From Sphingomonas sp. (GTDB lineage Bacteria > Pseudomonadota > Alphaproteobacteria > Sphingomonadales > Sphingomonadaceae): 64,000 nt of DNA. Below the pieces are notes generated by a model. That model saw only the letters and a list, made by a program, of their open reading frames with translations, did no database searches and had not been told where the DNA came from. This document shows, piece by piece, positions 2,835 to 29,931 of the stretch; position 1 is the stretch's first letter; each line of letters starts with the position of its first letter. The position numbers and the translations under genes are program-made. The stretch spans positions 1 through 64,000 of the forward strand of contig NZ_JANXNX010000062.1 in assembly GCF_025353885.1 (NCBI RefSeq), in the 5' to 3' direction.

Positions 2835-3851
2835 TCAAATCTTCGCGGTGCTGTCCCGGCTGATCAATTCATAGGGCAGCAGGCGGCGATAGCGTTGGTC
2901 GGTCGCGGCACCACGGTAACCGGGGTCGACCAGTATATCGATCGCCGCCGCCGCCATCTCCGATTTCGGCTGGCGAATCGTCGTCAGGGGTGGCCAGGCG
3001 GCGCGGGCGGTGGGCGCATCGTCAAACCCGGCGATCGACAGCATCTCCGGCACTGCCACATCCAGCTTCATGGCCGTGACAAGCACGCCGAGCGCCATGT
3101 CGTCGTTACTGGCGAACACCGCTGTCGGTCGAACATCGGCCGTGAGCAACGCGGTCGCGGGGCCAAGTGCCGAACGAAAGGAGAAGTCACCCTCCAGCAC
3201 ATAGGCCTGGTCGACCGCCAGCCCCCCCTCTGCCATGGTCGCGCAAAAGCCGTCATAGCGCTTGCGAGAGGCGCTGTGGTTCGGGTCGCCCTTGATGAAG
3301 GCGATCGTCCGGTGCCCAAGGGCAATCAGATGGCGCGTCATGTCGCTGGCCGCCGCGAAATCGTCCATTTCGACCAGTCCCGAGCGGTGGAAATCTGCAC
3401 TGGGCGCAATCCGCACATAGGCGATGCCCGCCGCATCGAGCATGTCGAGCAAAGCGGCGTTGTCGCAGATCGGAGGGGTCAGGATGACGCCTTCGAGCCG
3501 GAGCGCGCGGATACTTTGCTCGACCTCCGCAATCCAGTGTGGCGAGGCGAGGTTAACCGGCTCGACGACGAGGTGATAACTCTGCGCACGACTGCGCATC
3601 AGGGCACCGAATTGCACGTCGTTGGCGTATCCCGAAGCCGGGTCATCGAGGAACAGGCCGAGCAGGTAGGATCGTGAACTCGACAGGCTGCGGGCAAAGG
3701 GGTTGGGGCGATAGTCGAGTTCCGCGACGACCCGCAGCACAATGTCCCGGATTTCGGGGCGGACGTGCTGTTCGCCGTTGATGACGCGGGACACGGTCTT
3801 CGGGGAAACGCCGGCGCGGATCGCGACGTCCTTGATGGTGATCGTCTTCAT
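2835..3851 (-). CDS. LacI-family transcriptional regulator
   Basis: 'TIKDVAIRAGVSPKTVSRVINGEQHVRPEIRDIVLRVVAELDYRPNPFARSL' LacI HTH plus periplasmic-binding-like domain. Start at 3851 inside a longer ORF; overlaps the MFS stop by 4 nt. Confidence 0.93.
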   Translation of the reverse strand: MKTITIKDVAIRAGVSPKTVSRVINGEQHVRPEIRDIVLRVVAELDYRPNPFARSLSSSRSYLLGLFLDDPASGYANDVQFGALMRSRAQSYHLVVEPVNLASPHWIAEVEQSIRALRLEGVILTPPICDNAALLDMLDAAGIAYVRIAPSADFHRSGLVEMDDFAAASDMTRHLIALGHRTIAFIKGDPNHSASRKRYDGFCATMAEGGLAVDQAYVLEGDFSFRSALGPATALLTADVRPTAVFASNDDMALGVLVTAMKLDVAVPEMLSIAGFDDAPTARAAWPPLTTIRQPKSEMAAAAIDILVDPGYRGAATDQRYRRLLPYELISRDSTAKI

Positions 3852-5062
3852 CGTGTGGCCCTGACGGCAAAGCGGGCGAACAGCGCAATGCCGAAATAAC
3901 AGGCGGCGGGGAGCAGGAGCGACAGGCCGAGGCCGATCCGATCGGCAAGCAGTCCGGTGAGGTAGGGAATAATCGCGCCGCCCACTACCGCCATGCACAG
4001 GAACATCGAGGCAATGGGAGCGGCCTGGGCCTTTTCCGGAAGCGCAATTGCATAGACGGTCGGGTAGATGACGGCATTGCAAAGGCCAACCGCGAGCAGC
4101 GCGGCGGCGGCCAGGGGACCGTCGAACAGTGCGCCGACGCAGGTCAGTGCCGTCGCCCCGACCGACACCGACAGGAGCATGGTTGCGGAGGAGACCCGGC
4201 GGAGAAGAAAGGCTCCGGCAAAGCGACCGACCATTGCGCCGCCCCAGTAGAGGGCGACCATTCGCCCCGCGGCCACCGGTTCGGCGCCGATGGATTGCTT
4301 CAGCATCAGATAGTTGGTCAAGAGCGCGCCGATCGTAACTTCAGCACCGACATAAGCGAACATCGCCACAATACCGAATTGTAGCTTTCGATCGCCACTA
4401 AGGACATTGCGATAGGATGGCGCGGTCGTCCGGGTCCGGGACAGCATATTGCGGTTAAACGCGAACGCACCCGCGAGGATGAGCAACCCGACCGCCGAAA
4501 ACATGAAGGGCAGGACAACCGATCCAGCCCCGCCAACCGCAAAACTGCCGTCCGAGCGCGGCAGCAGAAATTGCGCACACAACAGGGGACCGGCCACCGT
4601 TCCCAGCGAGTTGAACCCCTGTAGCAGCGTCAGTCGCGATGCCGCACTGGAGGCGGGGCCGACCACGGTGACGACCGCATTGGCCGCAATTTGGAGGAAC
4701 GTGATGCCGACCGACAGCAACAGTAGCGCCAGCAGCACGAGGACGAACGACAGCAGCGCGTGCGCCTGCACGAACCCCAGGCAACCGAGCACCATGACGA
4801 CCAGCCCGGTAGCAATCGAGCGCATGTATCCGGCCCGCACGATGAACGCCGCGATCGGGATGGCGAACAGCAAATAGCTGGAGTGGAAGGCGAGTTGGAC
4901 CAGCAGCGACTGGGCATAGTCCAGGTTGAACAGCAGTTTCAGCCGGGGCACCAGCAGGCTGACCAGCGAGGTGAGGAAGCCGCCAAAGAAACATATGCCG
5001 ATCGACAGCCGGAAGAGGCGCGTGGCCACGTTATCGTCCGATGCGATGCCGGCATTTTTCAT
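3848..5062 (-). CDS. MFS sugar transporter, FucP/GluP (FHS)-like
   Basis: 404 aa, about 12 hydrophobic segments, 'LLQGFNSLGTVAGPLL' motif typical of the FHS family. Confidence 0.85.
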   Translation of the reverse strand: MKNAGIASDDNVATRLFRLSIGICFFGGFLTSLVSLLVPRLKLLFNLDYAQSLLVQLAFHSSYLLFAIPIAAFIVRAGYMRSIATGLVVMVLGCLGFVQAHALLSFVLVLLALLLLSVGITFLQIAANAVVTVVGPASSAASRLTLLQGFNSLGTVAGPLLCAQFLLPRSDGSFAVGGAGSVVLPFMFSAVGLLILAGAFAFNRNMLSRTRTTAPSYRNVLSGDRKLQFGIVAMFAYVGAEVTIGALLTNYLMLKQSIGAEPVAAGRMVALYWGGAMVGRFAGAFLLRRVSSATMLLSVSVGATALTCVGALFDGPLAAAALLAVGLCNAVIYPTVYAIALPEKAQAAPIASMFLCMAVVGGAIIPYLTGLLADRIGLGLSLLLPAACYFGIALFARFAVRATR

Positions 5063-5134
5063 CCGCGAGCCCTGTTCATTGACCGAACCATACAGTTGTA
5101 ATCGGGAAACGAAAACACAATCGCATAAAAACCC

Positions 5135-5146
5135 GACATCGATGTC
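5135..5146. promoter_or_regulatory. Candidate LacI-family operator 1 (GACATCGATGTC, perfect palindrome)
   Basis: 12-bp perfect palindrome in the lacI/MFS-TonB receptor divergent intergenic region; overlaps a minus-strand CTGACA (-35-like). Confidence 0.75.
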
Positions 5147-5157
5147 AGACTTTCGTT

Positions 5158-5169
5158 GACATCGATGTC
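5158..5169. promoter_or_regulatory. Candidate LacI-family operator 2 (GACATCGATGTC, perfect palindrome)
   Basis: Second identical 12-mer, 23 bp centre-to-centre from operator 1; overlaps plus-strand TTGACA (5156-5161). Confidence 0.75.
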
Positions 5170-5224
5170 GGTTTCTGGTGATGGGACGAGGTAGCTCAAA
5201 ACGAGCGCAATACAGGAGGATGAA

Positions 5225-7684
5225 ATGAAGGGGCAGTTTCTAGCCGCGAGCACTGCGCTCGCCACATCGTTTTTCGTAATTTCGGCCGCCGCCGCGCAGA
5301 CGACGCCAACTCCGACTGCAAACAGCGGACAGGCAGCAACCGATAACGGCGCAATCGAAGACATCGTCGTGACCGCAACGCGGCGCGAAACAAGTCTGCA
5401 GAGCACGCCTATCGCGGTTTCCGCGTTCAGCCAGGCGACACTCGATCGCCAGCAGGTCAACAACGTCACCGACCTCGCGCGTTTCGTCCCATCGCTCCAG
5501 TTCACCCAGCAGGGCGACCAGTCGGCGGTTCTGCTGACATTGCGCGGTATCGGTAACGACACGGCCTATACCGAAGTCGCCGATCCCGAAGTCGCGATCT
5601 ATATCGACGGTATCTATTCGCCCCGTTCGCAGGGTGCTTCGGTGCTTTTCTATGACCTGGAACGCGCAGAAGTGCTGCGCGGGCCTCAGGGAACGCTGTT
5701 CGGTCGCAATGCGACAGTCGGCGCGCTGAGCCTGATCACCGCCAAGCCCACGCTTGATAAATTCTATGGCAATGTCGAAGCAATCGCGGGCGATTACAAC
5801 CGCTTTGGATCACGTGGTGCCGTCAATGTTCCTGTCAGCGACAGCCTGGCGCTGCGTTTCGCATTCGTGACCGAACAGCATGACGGTTACGCTGATTATC
5901 AGCAGGCCCCGAACGTCCCCAATGTCGATCGCGCGGCGTTCATCACGACCGGCAAGAAATATTACGCCGTCGACCAGAAATCGGCGCGTATCAGCGCGCT
6001 GTTCCAGCCTCCTGGAAGCAAGTTCAGCTGGTTGCTGAGCGGCGAAGGCTTCCTCGATCGCGGCGCGCCCGTCATCGCGCTGTTGCAGACACCACGCCCC
6101 GGCACGAAGCTATATTCGACGCTGAGCGACACGGCGCCCGACACGCACCGCTATTCATGGGCGATCCGCAGTAACATCGGATATGATCTGACCGACCACA
6201 TGCAACTGGCCTATATCGCGGGCTATTCGCGCATTGGCGGCAGCACGCAGGCCGATGCGGATGCCGGTGCCTTGCCCCCCACGGGCGGTTTCGACCCGGT
6301 GTCGGGGCTGCAACTGTATCTTGGCGGATTCGGCGAGAACCGAACGGTCAATTCCAGATATAACTTCATGAGCCATGAGGTCCAGTTGAAGTCGAGCGGC
6401 GAAAACACCATCGACTACATTCTCGGTGGCTATTATTCGCACGAAAAAAACCAGATCCGTTTCGATGTCGATCAGCGTGACGGCTATCGGAATGGCGGAA
6501 CCCGTGCCTTTGTCGGCAGCTTCATCCAGGCCGATCGCGAGATCGATTCACTGGCAGGCTTTGGCCAGGTCACCTGGAACGTTACCAAGGCGCTTCGCGT
6601 CACCGGTGGCCTCCGCTACACGCGCGACAAGAAAAAGGACGTCGGCGGCCGCAACGTAACCGCGTTCGGTTGCCCGGCTCCGGGCGCGCCATCGTGCACG
6701 GTAAACATCTTTGGTGCCTATCCGAATGCCAGTGCTGCCGAACTGGTGGCATTGCTGAACGCACAGGGCGGCAATTTCTCCATCTCGAACAACGACGTGA
6801 AGGGGAGCTGGGGCAAATTGACCTATCTCGCCCGCGTCGATGCCGATTTGGCACCGGGCGTGCTGGGCTATGCAAGCATCAGCAGCGGTTTCAAGTCCGG
6901 TAACATCCAGGATGGTGGCGAAACGACCAATCCCGAAACGATCACCAACTATGAAGCCGGTTTCAAGGCCAAGTTGTTCGACCGTCGCGTAACCTTCAAC
7001 GCCGCAGCCTATTATTCCGATTTCAAGGGGTATCAGGTCAACCAGGTTCGCACGACCCGCGATGCGAACGGCAATACGATCGCCAGTCAGGTTGTGACAG
7101 AGAACGCCAAGGGGGCAACGGCCTATGGCCTGGAAGCCGAACTGGTCGCCAACGTCACCAATCATGACCGTATCCAGTTTTCAGGATCTCTGCAGAAGAC
7201 CAAGCTGAAAGCGCTGGCAACGATCGATGGCCGTTTCGACAACAGCGGCGATGTGACCGCAATCCGTCAGTTGGCGGGCAACGAGCTGGCTCACGCTCCG
7301 CGCTTTTCGGCAACTGCGACTTACGAACATGACTTTGTAATGGCCAACGGTGGCAGCATTACGCCACGGGCGACGATCCACTATGAATCCAAGAGCTACC
7401 TGACCTTCTTCAACGGCGATCGCACCAACCGGGTCGTGAACGGCGTCCCGGTCTATTACGGAACCGACTTCGATACGCAGAAGGGCTACACCAAGACCGA
7501 TCTGGCGATCCGGTACAACGCACCGGATAACCGGTTTGTGTTCGAGGTTTTCGGGCAGAACCTGGAGGACAAGGCGATCCGCACCAGTGCGGCAACGTTC
7601 GGGCCGACCCGTTATGCGCCGGTCTTCCTGTCCAACCTGCAGGCGCCACGAACATTCGGCGCGCGGATCAAGGCCAACTTCTGA
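5225..7684 (+). CDS. TonB-dependent receptor
   Basis: 819 aa; signal peptide, TonB box 'DIVVTATRR', plug 'LRGPQGTLFGRNATVGALSLITAKP', C-terminal aromatic beta-strand. Confidence 0.95.
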   Translation: MKGQFLAASTALATSFFVISAAAAQTTPTPTANSGQAATDNGAIEDIVVTATRRETSLQSTPIAVSAFSQATLDRQQVNNVTDLARFVPSLQFTQQGDQSAVLLTLRGIGNDTAYTEVADPEVAIYIDGIYSPRSQGASVLFYDLERAEVLRGPQGTLFGRNATVGALSLITAKPTLDKFYGNVEAIAGDYNRFGSRGAVNVPVSDSLALRFAFVTEQHDGYADYQQAPNVPNVDRAAFITTGKKYYAVDQKSARISALFQPPGSKFSWLLSGEGFLDRGAPVIALLQTPRPGTKLYSTLSDTAPDTHRYSWAIRSNIGYDLTDHMQLAYIAGYSRIGGSTQADADAGALPPTGGFDPVSGLQLYLGGFGENRTVNSRYNFMSHEVQLKSSGENTIDYILGGYYSHEKNQIRFDVDQRDGYRNGGTRAFVGSFIQADREIDSLAGFGQVTWNVTKALRVTGGLRYTRDKKKDVGGRNVTAFGCPAPGAPSCTVNIFGAYPNASAAELVALLNAQGGNFSISNNDVKGSWGKLTYLARVDADLAPGVLGYASISSGFKSGNIQDGGETTNPETITNYEAGFKAKLFDRRVTFNAAAYYSDFKGYQVNQVRTTRDANGNTIASQVVTENAKGATAYGLEAELVANVTNHDRIQFSGSLQKTKLKALATIDGRFDNSGDVTAIRQLAGNELAHAPRFSATATYEHDFVMANGGSITPRATIHYESKSYLTFFNGDRTNRVVNGVPVYYGTDFDTQKGYTKTDLAIRYNAPDNRFVFEVFGQNLEDKAIRTSAATFGPTRYAPVFLSNLQAPRTFGARIKANF

Positions 7685-7796: not shown

Positions 7797-10067
7797 ATGA
7801 TGATGAAAGCTGCAACGCGCCTCGCATTGAATGCCAGTTTGGTAGCCATTGTCGTCCTTCCTGGATTGCCCGTGGTGGTGGTCGCCAAAGAGGCAACGAA
7901 AGTTGCCGCCAGCGGCACAGCGAACCCACAAGCGCGCGCCGATGCTCTGGTGAAGGCAATGACGCGCGAGGAAAAACTGCGCCTCGTCCACAGTTATTTC
8001 CCGCCTTTGTCGAAGGTGTCCGGGGCGATGGGGATGATCCCCTCAGCGGCGCATATGGAAGGCGTGCCACGGCTCGGCATCCCCACCTTGCGCGAAAGCG
8101 ATGCGAGCCTGGGGGTCGCCAACCAGATCGAACAGCGCAAGGGTGATGTCGCGACCGCGCTGCCTGCCGGCCTCGCCACCGCGGCGACGTTTAACCCAGA
8201 GCTTGCGTTTCGCGGCGGCGCGATGATCGGTTCGGAGGCACGGGCAAAGACCTTCAACGTGCTGTTGGCGGGCGGCCTGAACCTGACCCGCGATCCGTTC
8301 AACGGACGCAATTTCGAATATCTGGGTGAAGATCCCCTGCTGGCGGGCGTGATGGCGGGCGAATCCATTCGCGGGGTCGAGAGCAATCATATCGTTTCGA
8401 CGATCAAGCATTTCGCGATCAACTCACAGGAAACAGGGCGTCATGTTTCCGATGCCCTGATCGGCGAAGCGGCGCTGCGTGAAAGCGATCTGCTGGCGTT
8501 TGAACTGGCGATCGAGCGCGGCAAGCCGGGTTCGGTCATGTGCGCCTATAACAAGGTCAACGGCGACTATGCGTGCGAGAACGACTTCCTGTTGAACCGG
8601 GTGCTGAAAGGCGACTGGGGCTACAAGGGCTGGGTCATGTCGGACTGGGGCGCGGTTCATTCGACCGTCAAGGCGGCGTTGTCCGGGCTGGATCAGCAGT
8701 CGGGGCAGGAATTGGACACGGCACCCTTTTTCCAGGAGCCCCTGGCAAAAGCGCTGGCGGCTGGCACCGTTCCCGAGGCGCGGCTGAACGATATGGCGCG
8801 ACGTATATTGTATGGCGTGATCGCAAGTGGGCTGATCGATCATCCGGTTCCGGACACCGCCCAGCCGATCGATTATGCCGCACATGCCGAGGTCGCGCAG
8901 CGCACTGCCGAAGAGGGAATTGTCCTGTTGAAGAACAGCGGCGCCCTGTTGCCCGTGGCAAGGACCGCGCGCCGGATCGTCCTGATCGGCGCCCACGCCG
9001 ATGTCGGGGTGTTGTCCGGCGGCGGGTCCTCACAGGTTCGTTCGGTCGGCGGCGCGCCGGTCGAGATACCGCTGACCAAGGGCGAGGCAGCCTCGTTCGC
9101 GCGGATAACATGGCACGCTTCCTCGCCACTCAAGGCGATCCGCGCGGCGCTGCCACAGGCCGATGTCACTTATGTCGATGGCGGGGACGTGGCGGCGGCG
9201 GCGGCGGCGGCAAAGGGTGCCGACCTGGCCATCGTCTTTGCCTGGCAGTGGCAGACCGAGGCCCAGGATGCGGAAACGCTGATGCTGCCTGACAACCAAG
9301 ATGCGTTGATCGACGCGGTGGCGGGCGCGAATGCAAAGACGCTGGTCGTTCTGGAAACCGGCGGGCCGGTGACGATGCCATGGATCGACCGCGTGCCAGC
9401 GGTGTTGCAGGCATGGTATCCGGGGCAGCGCGGCGGCGAGGCGATCGCGCGGATACTGGTCGGTGACGTCAACCCGTCGGGACGACTGCCGATGACGTTC
9501 CCGGTCCGCGCTGAACAGGCCCCCCGCAGTGCGCCGGTCGGACTGGCTGCGCTAAAGGCTTCGGATGCGGGGCGTGAGGCTGGCGATGCGACATCGAAGC
9601 TCGCACCGTTCGCGATCGATTACCGGGAGGGCGCCGACGTCGGCTATCGCTGGTATGAGAAGACCGCGCAAAAACCGCTGTTTCCGTTCGGATACGGACA
9701 GTCCTACACCAGCTTCCGCTATGCGAACCTGACGGTGGCGGGCGGCGCGACGATCACGGTCAGCTTCGATGTGACGAATACGGGCACGCGGTCGGGCCAG
9801 GATGTGCCACAATTTTATGTGCAGCCGGTGGACAAGGGCAATGCGTTCCGCCTGGCGGGCTGGACGAAGCTGAAGCTGGCGCCGGGGCAGACGCAGCGGG
9901 TGACGATCGTGGCTGAGCCACGGACGTTCTCGCGTTACGATGTCAAGGCGCGACGCTGGCAGCGGGATGCGGGGAAATATGCGATCGCCGTCGGGCATTC
10001 GGCCGAAGACCGCGCGCTGGCAGGGACGATCGTGCTGGGCGCAGGTTCGGGATTTACCAAACCATAA
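7797..10067 (+). CDS. Secreted glycoside hydrolase family 3 beta-glucosidase (BglX-like)
   Basis: 756 aa; signal peptide; 'GWVMSDWGAVHST' catalytic nucleophile region; C-terminal fibronectin III-like domain. Confidence 0.93.
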   Translation: MMMKAATRLALNASLVAIVVLPGLPVVVVAKEATKVAASGTANPQARADALVKAMTREEKLRLVHSYFPPLSKVSGAMGMIPSAAHMEGVPRLGIPTLRESDASLGVANQIEQRKGDVATALPAGLATAATFNPELAFRGGAMIGSEARAKTFNVLLAGGLNLTRDPFNGRNFEYLGEDPLLAGVMAGESIRGVESNHIVSTIKHFAINSQETGRHVSDALIGEAALRESDLLAFELAIERGKPGSVMCAYNKVNGDYACENDFLLNRVLKGDWGYKGWVMSDWGAVHSTVKAALSGLDQQSGQELDTAPFFQEPLAKALAAGTVPEARLNDMARRILYGVIASGLIDHPVPDTAQPIDYAAHAEVAQRTAEEGIVLLKNSGALLPVARTARRIVLIGAHADVGVLSGGGSSQVRSVGGAPVEIPLTKGEAASFARITWHASSPLKAIRAALPQADVTYVDGGDVAAAAAAAKGADLAIVFAWQWQTEAQDAETLMLPDNQDALIDAVAGANAKTLVVLETGGPVTMPWIDRVPAVLQAWYPGQRGGEAIARILVGDVNPSGRLPMTFPVRAEQAPRSAPVGLAALKASDAGREAGDATSKLAPFAIDYREGADVGYRWYEKTAQKPLFPFGYGQSYTSFRYANLTVAGGATITVSFDVTNTGTRSGQDVPQFYVQPVDKGNAFRLAGWTKLKLAPGQTQRVTIVAEPRTFSRYDVKARRWQRDAGKYAIAVGHSAEDRALAGTIVLGAGSGFTKP

Positions 10068-10100: not shown

Positions 10101-12629
10101 ATGAAGCGCGTTTCACTGATCGTCATGGCCACGGCATTGCTGGCGGGGAACGCGGACGCAAAAGATGCGGCCGCGAGCATGACCCCGGAGGCGGCAGTGG
10201 CGCATCCCCAGTTGTGGCCGTCGCTGAAAAGACTGCCGCGCGATGCGGCGGTCGAAAAGCGAGTGGATGCCCTGATCGCGGCGATGTCGCTGGACGACAA
10301 GGTGGGGCAGATGATCCAGGTCGATATCGGCAGCATCAAGCCGGTCGACGTGGAAACCTACAAGATCGGGTCGATCCTGAACGGGGGCAATTCAGGCCCG
10401 TACGACGACGAGCTGGCGCCGCCGCCCAAATGGCTGAAACTGGCCGACGAATATTATGACGCGTCGATGAAACGGAGCGACAAGGGGCCGCGCATTCCGA
10501 TTATCTGGGGCACCGACGCAGTGCACGGGAACAACAATATCGTCGGGGCTACGCTGTTCCCGCACAATATCGGACTGGGTGCAGCGCATGATCCGGCGCT
10601 GATCAGGCGGATCGGTGAGATCACATCGATCGAGACCGCGGCGGCCGGACAGGACTGGACCTTCGCGCCGACGCTGGCGGTGGTGCAGGACGACCGCTGG
10701 GGCCGGATTTATGAAAGCTATTCGGAAGAGCCGCAGATCCCGGCCGAATATGCCAGTGCCATGATCGAGGGGGTGCAGGGCAAGTTCGGCACCAAAGCCT
10801 TTCTGTCGCCGCAGCACCTGATCGCGACGACCAAGCATTTCCTGGGCGATGGCGGCACCGGCGGGCGCGACCAGGGCGACACGCAGGTCTCCGAACAGGT
10901 GCTCCGCGATGTCCATCTTGGCGGGTATCCGGCAGCGATCACGGCTGGCACGCAGTCGGTCATGATCAGCTTTTCAAGCTGGAACGGCGTCAAGATGAGT
11001 GGCAACAAAAGCTTGCTGACCGATGTCCTGAAGGACCGGATGAAGTTCGACGGCTTTGTAATCGGCGACTGGAACAGCCACGGCCAGGTGCCGGGATGCA
11101 CCAACGAAAGCTGTGCTGCAGCAATCAACGCGGGCATGGACATGTTCATGTATTCGGGGCCGGGCTGGAAACAGCTTTACACCAACACGCTGGCCCAGGC
11201 GAAGTCGGGTGAGATACCGATGGCACGGGTCGACGATGCGGTGCGGCGTATCCTGCGCGTCAAGATCCGCGCCGGGACGTTCGATCGCGGACGGCCATCG
11301 TCGCGTGCCTATGCGGGCAAATTCGATGCATTCGGTGCGCCTGCGCATCGCGCCGTTGCGCGGTCCGCGGTCCGTGAATCGCTGGTGCTGCTCAAAAACG
11401 AAAATGTCCTGCCGCTGAAGCCCAGCGCCAGAATATTGGTGGCGGGCGCGGGAGCGGATGACGTCAGCCAGCAAGCGGGTGGATGGACAATCACCTGGCA
11501 AGGCACGGGCGTCACCAACAAGGATTTCCCGAATGCCCAGACAATCTGGTCGGGCATCGCAGAGACGGTGAAGCAGGGCGGCGGGACCGCAACGCTGTCC
11601 GTCGATGGTTCGTTCACCACCAAGCCCGACGCAGCGATCGTCGTGTTCGGAGAACAGCCCTATGCCGAATTTAAGGGCGACCGGCCAACGCTGGAATATA
11701 GCGCCGACGACAGGTCCGACCTGGTCCTGCTGAAAAAGCTGAAAGCCGCCGGTATCCCGGTGGTTGCGGTGTTCCTGTCGGGGCGACCGTTGTGGGTCAA
11801 TGCCGAGCTGAATGCGTCCGACGCGTTCGTCGCTGCATTCCTGCCGGGGAGCGAGGGCGGTGGCGTCGCCGATGTCCTGTTTGCCAAGGTGGACGGCAAA
11901 CCGCGCTATGACTTTCGTGGCAAGCTGAGTTTTTCGTGGCCGAAGCGTCCCGATCAATATGTGTTGAACCGGCGCGACCTGAACTACGATCCGCTATTCG
12001 CCTATGGATACGGGCTGACCTATGCGACGCCGCGCCACCTCGGCATGCTCGACGAAAAGCGACCCGCTGGCATGGCGGCGGGAATGATCGGCCAGTTGTT
12101 CAACAAGGGGCGGGTCCCCGAAGGCTGGTCGATGGCAATGGAGAGCGCCGGACAGGCCAGTACGCCGATTGCCGGGGCAGCCACAGCATTGCCGACCGGC
12201 AGCATGACTGCGCGCACGGTCGATCGTCGCGCGCAGGAAGACGCGTTGCGGCTGGCCTGGTCCGGCCCGGCCATCGGCACATTGAAGATTGCCGCGCCGC
12301 GACCCATCGATATCGACCGCGAAACCAACGGGGAACTGAGCCTGGTCATGGAGTATCGCGTCGATCAGGCGGCGGCAGCCATGGTCACGATCGGCGTGGC
12401 CAACGGGACCAAGATCGCAGCGGTGCCCATCGGGAAGACCTTGAGTGCGGCCAAGGCGGGCGAATGGAATGAGATCGCGGTGCCGCTGAAGTGCTTTGCA
12501 GCGCGCGGTGCCGACATGAAGACGCTTTCGTCGCCATTCGTCCTGTCGTCGGGCGCGGGCACGACACTGTCGGTGTCGAACGTCCGTCTCGACTATGTTT
12601 CGATCCCGATGAACAAGTGCGGTGACTAG
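10101..12629 (+). CDS. Secreted glycoside hydrolase family 3, exo-1,3/1,4-beta-glucanase-like (ExoP type)
   Basis: 842 aa; 'GTDAVHGNNNIVGATLFPHNIGLGAAHDPALIRRIG', 'ATTKHFLGDGGTGGRDQGDT', 'DGFVIGDWNSHGQVPG'; extra C-terminal beta-rich domain. Confidence 0.93.
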   Translation: MKRVSLIVMATALLAGNADAKDAAASMTPEAAVAHPQLWPSLKRLPRDAAVEKRVDALIAAMSLDDKVGQMIQVDIGSIKPVDVETYKIGSILNGGNSGPYDDELAPPPKWLKLADEYYDASMKRSDKGPRIPIIWGTDAVHGNNNIVGATLFPHNIGLGAAHDPALIRRIGEITSIETAAAGQDWTFAPTLAVVQDDRWGRIYESYSEEPQIPAEYASAMIEGVQGKFGTKAFLSPQHLIATTKHFLGDGGTGGRDQGDTQVSEQVLRDVHLGGYPAAITAGTQSVMISFSSWNGVKMSGNKSLLTDVLKDRMKFDGFVIGDWNSHGQVPGCTNESCAAAINAGMDMFMYSGPGWKQLYTNTLAQAKSGEIPMARVDDAVRRILRVKIRAGTFDRGRPSSRAYAGKFDAFGAPAHRAVARSAVRESLVLLKNENVLPLKPSARILVAGAGADDVSQQAGGWTITWQGTGVTNKDFPNAQTIWSGIAETVKQGGGTATLSVDGSFTTKPDAAIVVFGEQPYAEFKGDRPTLEYSADDRSDLVLLKKLKAAGIPVVAVFLSGRPLWVNAELNASDAFVAAFLPGSEGGGVADVLFAKVDGKPRYDFRGKLSFSWPKRPDQYVLNRRDLNYDPLFAYGYGLTYATPRHLGMLDEKRPAGMAAGMIGQLFNKGRVPEGWSMAMESAGQASTPIAGAATALPTGSMTARTVDRRAQEDALRLAWSGPAIGTLKIAAPRPIDIDRETNGELSLVMEYRVDQAAAAMVTIGVANGTKIAAVPIGKTLSAAKAGEWNEIAVPLKCFAARGADMKTLSSPFVLSSGAGTTLSVSNVRLDYVSIPMNKCGD

Positions 12630-27897: not shown

Positions 27898-29931
27898 ATG
27901 ACCATGACATCACCCATTTCGACCGAGCGCCATGAAGATGTCCTCGTCATCGTTTCGAACAATCCTCCGGTCAACGCGCTGGGTGCCGATGTCCGCATCG
28001 GCCTGGACGCCGGGATCAGGGAAGCGCTGGCCGACGACAATATCAAGGCAATTGTAATCCGTTGCGACGGACGTACCTTTTTTGCGGGCGCGGACATCAC
28101 CGAGTTCACCAAGGCACCGGTCGAACCCGGCCTGCCCGAAGTGGTCAACACGATAGAGGCTTCGACCAAACCGGTTATCGCGGCTATTCACGGCACCGCG
28201 CTCGGCGGCGGATGCGAGATTACGCTGGGCTGTCATTACCGCATCGCCGTCCCCTCGGCCAAGATGGGCACGCCCGAGGTCAAGCTTGGACTGTTGCCGG
28301 GTGCCGGTGGCACCCAGCGCCTGCCACGCGTGGCGGGTATCGAGGCGGCGGTGGAAATGTGCGCGACGGGGACCCCGATCGGCATGAAAAAGGCGCTCGA
28401 GATCGGGCTGATCGACCGGATGGCGGGCGAGGACATGCTCGTGGCCGACGCGATCGCCTTTGCACGCGAGATGATTGCACAGGGGCCGAGACCCTCTCGT
28501 GCGCTGCCGGTGAAGGGCAACGTCGCGGCCATTGCGGACTTTGCCAAGGCCAATGCGCGCAAGTTCCGCGGGTTCGACGCACCAGCCGCCAACATCGCTT
28601 GCGTCGAGGCAGCCACCCGGCTGTCCTTCGACGAGGGACTGGCGTTCGAACGCGCGGAGTTCTTAAAGCTGATCATGGGCGTCCAGTCGGCTGCCCAGCG
28701 CCACATCTTTTTCGCCGAACGCCAAGCTCAGAAGATCGACGGCCTCGCGCCCGACGTCCAGCCCCGGACCATCAACCGCGTCGGCGTGATCGGCGCGGGC
28801 ACGATGGGCGGCGGGATTTCGATGAATTTCCTGAGCGCAGGCGTCGCCGTGACGATCGTCGAGATGAAGCAGGATGCGCTCGACAAGGGCACCGGCATCA
28901 TGCGCAAAAACTATGAGGCGAGCGCCGCCAAGGGACGCATCACGCCAGCGCAGGTCGAGAGTGCCATGGGGCTATTAAAGGCCACCCTGGCGCTGGAGGA
29001 TCTCAGCGACTGCGACCTCATTATCGAGGCCGTATATGAAGACATGGGCGTTAAAAAGGAAATTTTTGGCAAGCTCGACAAGATTTGCAAGCCGGGCGCA
29101 ATCCTTGCGTCAAACACCAGCTACCTCGACATCGACGAGATTGCCGCCAGCACCAGTCGACCGCAGGATGTGCTGGGAATGCACTTCTTTTCTCCGGCCA
29201 ATGTCATGAAACTGCTTGAGGTCGTTCGCGGGGCAAAGACGGCTCCCGACGCCCTGATGACGGCGATGGGACTGGCCAAGAAGATTGGCAAGGTCGCGGT
29301 GGTCGCAGGCGTGTGCGATGGGTTTATCGGCAACCGGATGCTAAAACCGCGCCAGCTTGAAGCGATGAAGTTGCTGATGGAAGGTGCGACGCCCGACCAG
29401 GTCGACCGGGTGCATGTCGCGTTTGGAATGCCGATGGGGCCATTCCAGATGGCCGACCTCGCGGGTGTCGATATTGGCTGGCACCGCGACCCAACGCGGA
29501 TCGAGAACATCCGCGATGCACTCGCGGCCGTTGGTCGCTGGGGGCAAAAGACCGGCAAGGGATTTTACGACTATGACGAAAAGCGCAACCCGACACCGTC
29601 ATCCGAGACACAGGCCATTATCGACGATTTTTCGGCCAAGGCAGGCCTGACCAAGCGCGAGATCGGTGATCAGGAAATTATCGAACGGACCCTCTACACG
29701 ATGGTCAATGAAGGTGCGCTGATTCTTGAAGAAGGCATGGCGCAGCGGGCGTCGGACATCGATGTCGTCTGGATCTATGGCTATGGATGGCCCGTCTATC
29801 GTGGCGGGCCGATGTTTTGGGCCGACACCGAAGGCAATGACAAGATCGTTGCGGGGCTTGAGAAGAATGGCTTCGAGGTCGCAGCGTCATTGAAAAAACT
29901 TGCCGAGACCAAAGGGCGGTTCAACCGGTAA
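27898..29931 (+). CDS. Bifunctional enoyl-CoA hydratase / 3-hydroxyacyl-CoA dehydrogenase (FadB/FadJ-like)
   Basis: 677 aa; crotonase domain '[10 protein letters not shown]', '[15 protein letters not shown]'; HAD domain '[19 protein letters not shown]', '[15 protein letters not shown]'. Confidence 0.95.

Follow-up and report, generated by a model that had tools for sequence, protein, structure and literature searches.

Which protein acts at two identical palindromes lying between a pair of divergent operons, and does it control one operon or both? The question arose in a Sphingomonas sp. stretch of 64,000 nucleotides (hereafter the window), in which an MFS sugar transporter gene (3848–5062, minus strand) and a TonB-dependent receptor gene (5225–7684, plus strand) are transcribed away from each other. 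The transporter had an MFS_1 domain and resembled a gluP-like model (3.7e-50, under that model's cut-off). It heads an MFS-lacI operon, since the transporter gene overlaps the start of the lacI gene (2835–3851, minus strand) by 4 bp, and the two genes are therefore probably cotranscribed. The lacI product, our presumed binder, belongs to the LacI/GalR family, as evidenced by its N-terminal LacI helix-turn-helix (PF00356, 7.1e-18), its periplasmic-binding-like effector domain (Peripla_BP_3, PF13377, 2.7e-32) and its alignment with orthologues. The receptor has plug and barrel domains and heads the divergent operon. It is followed on the plus strand by a GH3 enzyme resembling β-glucosidases in its Pfam domains and best PDB matches (7797–10067) and by a GH3 enzyme with an Exop_C domain (10101–12629; Pfam), which matched the exo-1,3/1,4-β-glucanase of PDB 3usz (E 7e-233). 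The most likely role of the locus is the uptake and splitting of β-glucan fragments. Just 3' of lacI, a secretory-lipase-like α/β hydrolase gene (1641–2795) is possibly cotranscribed. No counterpart of it was found beside lacI in 15 related loci or in the set of 80 loci, and we thus placed it outside the conserved unit.

The gap between the MFS start (5062) and the receptor start (5225) is 162 bp long and contains the perfect palindrome GACATCGATGTC twice. The putative operator O1 (5135–5146) is proximal to the MFS and lacI genes, and the putative operator O2 (5158–5169) is proximal to the receptor gene; both were located by exact match and have counterparts in orthologous loci. An earlier note on this DNA had reported two perfect 12-mers with centres 23 bp apart, and both the repeats and the distance were borne out. 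The same note described the element as duplicated in inverted orientation. Because a perfect palindrome reads alike on both strands, this description can apply only to the outer flanks of the pair, AAACCC ... GGTTT. The relaxed motif GACANCGNTGTC occurred three times in the window, compared with 0.10 expected from its composition. The exact 12-mer GACATCGATGTC was found three times in the 2.76-Mb assembly, and all three copies are in the window. The third (29755–29766) is a single site in coding sequence without the paired arrangement. A scan of the whole assembly found no other intergenic GACANCGNTGTC site; the four further matches all lie in long open reading frames. In this assembly, the motif is thus intergenic only in the O1/O2 pair. 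Given the excess in the window and the intragenic position of all other matches, we concluded that the pair is not a product of chance. The genome scan proposed earlier, for copies upstream of other glycan genes, came back empty in this assembly, and a wider regulon in the strain's own genome was rejected because every other match is intragenic.

The pair is conserved in relatives. LacI orthologues were collected from a family search and from named genomes, and orthologues with 55–69% identity to the protein at 2835–3851 carried GACANCGNTGTC in the same intergenic region. The 31 named Sphingomonadaceae loci in this identity range held 60 sites, compared with 0.57 expected, and at least one site was present in 28 of the 31. 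The three loci without a site include two short contigs that end near lacI (L058 and L082). Three loci with MFS and lacI homologues (L038, L039 and L044) had no GACANCGNTGTC site in the stretch covered. The commonest arrangement was a pair of sites in the MFS–receptor gap, as for O1 and O2. Where the gene order is altered, the sites precede GH3 or lacI genes, an arrangement expected of sites that go with the regulator. The GACANCGNTGTC sites are therefore conserved upstream of the genes linked to the orthologous regulator, and the pair can be read as a phylogenetic footprint, because divergent LacI orthologues share it at the same place. The exact double 12-mer pattern had only two matches in 301 family genomes, a scarcity explained by differences among relatives at the two N positions.

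Spacing was scored for adjacent sites less than 150 bp apart in all 80 loci. Twenty-four pairs fell within 21–24 bp (21 bp, 2; 22 bp, 4; 23 bp, 9; 24 bp, 9), and the others were at 33 bp (2), 44 bp (2), 16 bp (1), 142 bp (1) and 145 bp (1). Most spacings are near two, three or four helical turns. Tandem sites that share one face of the helix are expected near 22 or 32 bp, and we found 23 bp here and 21–24, 33 or 44 bp in the relatives. The conserved 23-bp spacing, whose meaning the earlier note had not considered, is the two-turn tandem spacing characteristic of LacI sites that act cooperatively. One locus carries three perfect palindromes at 22-bp intervals (L059:4644–4699), and another has a 44-bp pair with a one-mismatch copy, GACATCGTTGTT, between its members (L057:3780–3835).

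A doubled palindrome could also act as a nucleic-acid hairpin, either a terminator or a structure in the 5' leader, rather than as protein-binding sites. The RNA of the palindromes and their flanks (5128–5176) folded at −26.7 kcal/mol (z −6.3), and the pair was marked as resembling a terminator, with TTTCT as its tail. However, such a hairpin arises inevitably from any doubled palindrome, and this pair lies between divergent genes and over a −35 element. In addition, the outward-read cores are unequal in 10 of 24 loci, some loci have single sites, and the spacing stays close to integral helical turns, a constraint that a hairpin would not impose. We rejected this reading as extremely improbable; the hairpin potential is probably a by-product of the repeated palindrome.

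Another possibility is that the two operators persist as the arms of a long imperfect inverted repeat, with outer flanks copied from one to the other by concerted evolution. The mean identical run of outer flank was about 2.1 within a locus and 0.7–0.8 between loci, and the identity over six bases gave p of about 0.005–0.015. The effect was carried by few loci (L060, L067 and L043); leaving out L060 raised p to 0.08, and a similar p turned up at one of the eight control offsets. We consider this copying unlikely; template switching could be one route to it, and chance could also account for the matches. Mirror-copied outer flanks were seen at L060:4628–4662 (10 nt), L067:4613–4668 (6 nt) and L043:10376–10410 (5 nt), even though one locus differs from another in its flanks.

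Given that O1 and O2 read best as protein-binding sites, we compared candidate binders. The recognition helix of the adjacent LacI is VSPKTVSR. Across lineages, the base adjoining the central CG shifts with residue 17 of the LacI recognition helix: base 5 of the half-site (GACAx) was T in 97 of 124 half-sites accompanied by proline, alanine or threonine at residue 17, compared with 4 of 120 accompanied by isoleucine. The contrast is consistent with recognition of these sites by LacI, although it lies mostly between lineages and may represent one evolutionary event. The main binder could instead be some other regulator, for example a global factor or a second LacI protein. LacI homologues with 44–46% identity also adjoin GACANCGNTGTC in related genomes (L021, L027 and L030), indicating that the motif is common to members of the LacI family. 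Nevertheless, the assembly encodes just two LacI-type helix-turn-helix proteins, and the second has an unrelated recognition helix, VSQSAVSR. Moreover, the non-coding sites in this genome occur solely beside the present lacI gene. A different main binder is very unlikely on this evidence. The conserved pair, the residue-17 contrast and the unlike helix of the other protein make the adjacent LacI the best candidate, and it is the likely binder of O1 and O2. The earlier proposal that the palindromes are LacI operators recognized by the neighbouring LacI is thus supported, as a prediction, by conservation and helix comparison.

The palindromes had also been proposed to overlap two divergent −35 hexamers. 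On the receptor side, O2 overlaps TTGACA (5156–5161, plus strand). The TT preceding the receptor-side core, which completes TTGACA, was present in 22 of 22 Sphingomonadaceae loci, compared with 4 of 22 for the mirror-image flank of the same operator (Fisher p 1e-8 with relatedness ignored; the 22 loci are not independent, and merging them by LacI identity leaves 15 at 80% and 9 at 70%). TTGACA was also present in seven of nine more distant homologous receptor loci and, among those listed, faced the gene in six of eight GH3a-facing loci. This invariance, together with the recurrence in distant receptor and GH3a-facing loci, suggests that O2 very probably overlaps the true −35 of the receptor operon. 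On the other side, O1 overlaps CTGACA (5143–5148, minus strand), which may be the −35 of the MFS-lacI operon. On that flank, 12 of 22 loci have TT and 5 of 22 have CT, as in this window, so that the predicted overlap with a −35 is more weakly supported there than at O2.

These differences bear on the claim that one repressor could shut both promoters with identical geometry. The centre of one operator lies 61.5 bp from its start codon and that of the other 78.5 bp, the latter being the distance from O1 to the MFS start, and the two sides differ in the TT flank. Identical geometry is thus not supported; the placement of both operons under the pair is. A more restricted reading is that the pair serves mainly the receptor promoter, with the MFS-lacI promoter located elsewhere or weakly controlled. 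The uneven TT before the core (22 of 22 on the receptor side vs. 12 of 22 on the MFS side) favours it, as does the failure to see a conserved −10 after O1 in the relatives' loci. On the other hand, a distance of 78.5 bp from O1 to the MFS start is not unusual for LacI sites, and local LacI regulators normally control their own genes (PMC4052901). We regard this reading as possible but somewhat unlikely, and control of both operons and of lacI itself by one LacI is, as a prediction, supported by the position of the pair.

The proposed −10 boxes were not supported. Both hexamers are present at 17-nt spacing, TGATGG at 5179–5184 and TGCGAT at 5120–5125 on the minus strand, but they make poor −10 elements. 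On the receptor side, TGATGG matches TATAAT at one of six positions and the neighbouring GATGGG at two of six, and no −10 hexamer was recognizable at 16–18 nt. On the MFS-lacI side, CTGACA scores five of six and TGCGAT three of six, and neither is conserved. Across 22 receptor-side promoters, the best window at 16–18 nt averaged 2.59 matches, compared with 2.27 and 2.41 at control positions, so that no conserved −10 emerged, and a sigma-70 consensus scan found no promoter. We therefore rejected a sigma-70 −10 box on the receptor side, for want of a consensus-scan match and a clear positional excess. A weak −10 may still exist, because most alphaproteobacterial promoters analysed lack −7T in the −10 (PMC8407463). 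Seven Burkholderiales-type receptor loci have TACGAT, CATGAT or CATCAT 17–18 nt after the embedded TTGACA. These loci (L105, L106, L109, L112, L114, L127 and L129; Roseateles/Burkholderiales-type, LacI homologues 46–50%) carry GACANCGNTGTC, paired or single, beside a TonB receptor, and it is their receptor-side site that embeds TTGACA. Their presence suggests spread or deep conservation of the sites beyond Alphaproteobacteria.

From these sequence features, we infer a scheme of binding, cooperativity, repression, induction and transcription starts, in which O1 and O2 are, with high probability, tandem operators through which LacI (2835–3851) represses both operons, including its own gene. When no inducer is present, O1 and O2 would each be occupied by a LacI dimer, with the two dimers on one side of the helix at a distance of two turns, and their binding would probably be cooperative. 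LacI at O2 would cover the −35 of the receptor-GH3-GH3 operon and block RNA polymerase. LacI at O1 would cover the region where the MFS-lacI operon starts, would probably block its promoter and would autoregulate lacI. A product of β-glucan or β-glucoside breakdown would then release LacI. Considering the GH3 enzymes and the gluP-like transporter, the inducer is probably glucose or a β-glucoside such as cellobiose or laminaribiose.

Ravcheev et al. 2014 describe local LacI regulons with even palindromes, a central CG and a 22-bp spacing peak; 72% of LacI regulators autoregulate, and all sites of RafR and ScrR are double, at 21–22 bp (PMC4052901). The present locus resembles these regulons: GACATCGATGTC is an even, CG-centred palindrome, the pair is spaced at about 22 bp in one divergent region, the operator centres are within 30–140 bp of the start codons, and autoregulation is predicted. 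The text considered names neither the orthologous group of this LacI nor its motif. In a literature search for the exact 12-mer GACATCGATGTC, no title among the matches listed bore on this subject. The experimentally studied sux locus of Xanthomonas campestris comprises the LacI repressor SuxR, the inner-membrane transporter SuxC and the TonB receptor SuxA; SuxR controls the other two and represses its own gene (PMC1790865). The same gene trio is present here, with predicted repression of the transporter, the receptor and the repressor's own gene. However, sux is a sucrose system with an amylosucrase, whereas the present locus has two GH3 enzymes and no recognizable sucrose enzyme.

The type of arrangement is already well known and is conserved in relatives; this locus adds a case to the LacI regulators and leaves the general picture of LacI regulation unchanged. 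It provides a concrete predicted local regulon for β-glucan or β-glucoside uptake in sphingomonads, with an operator motif, a spacing rule and a regulator. BglR1-3 and GluR of Caulobacterales are LacI regulators predicted for β-glucoside or glucose genes (PMC4052901). Homologues of this LacI in Caulobacter (about 46–52% identity) often adjoin GH3 genes and GACANCGNTGTC sites, but those sites have A or G where the present ones have T. For LacI DNA-recognition codes, the way in which base 5 of the half-site varies with residue 17 is a modest but useful datum.
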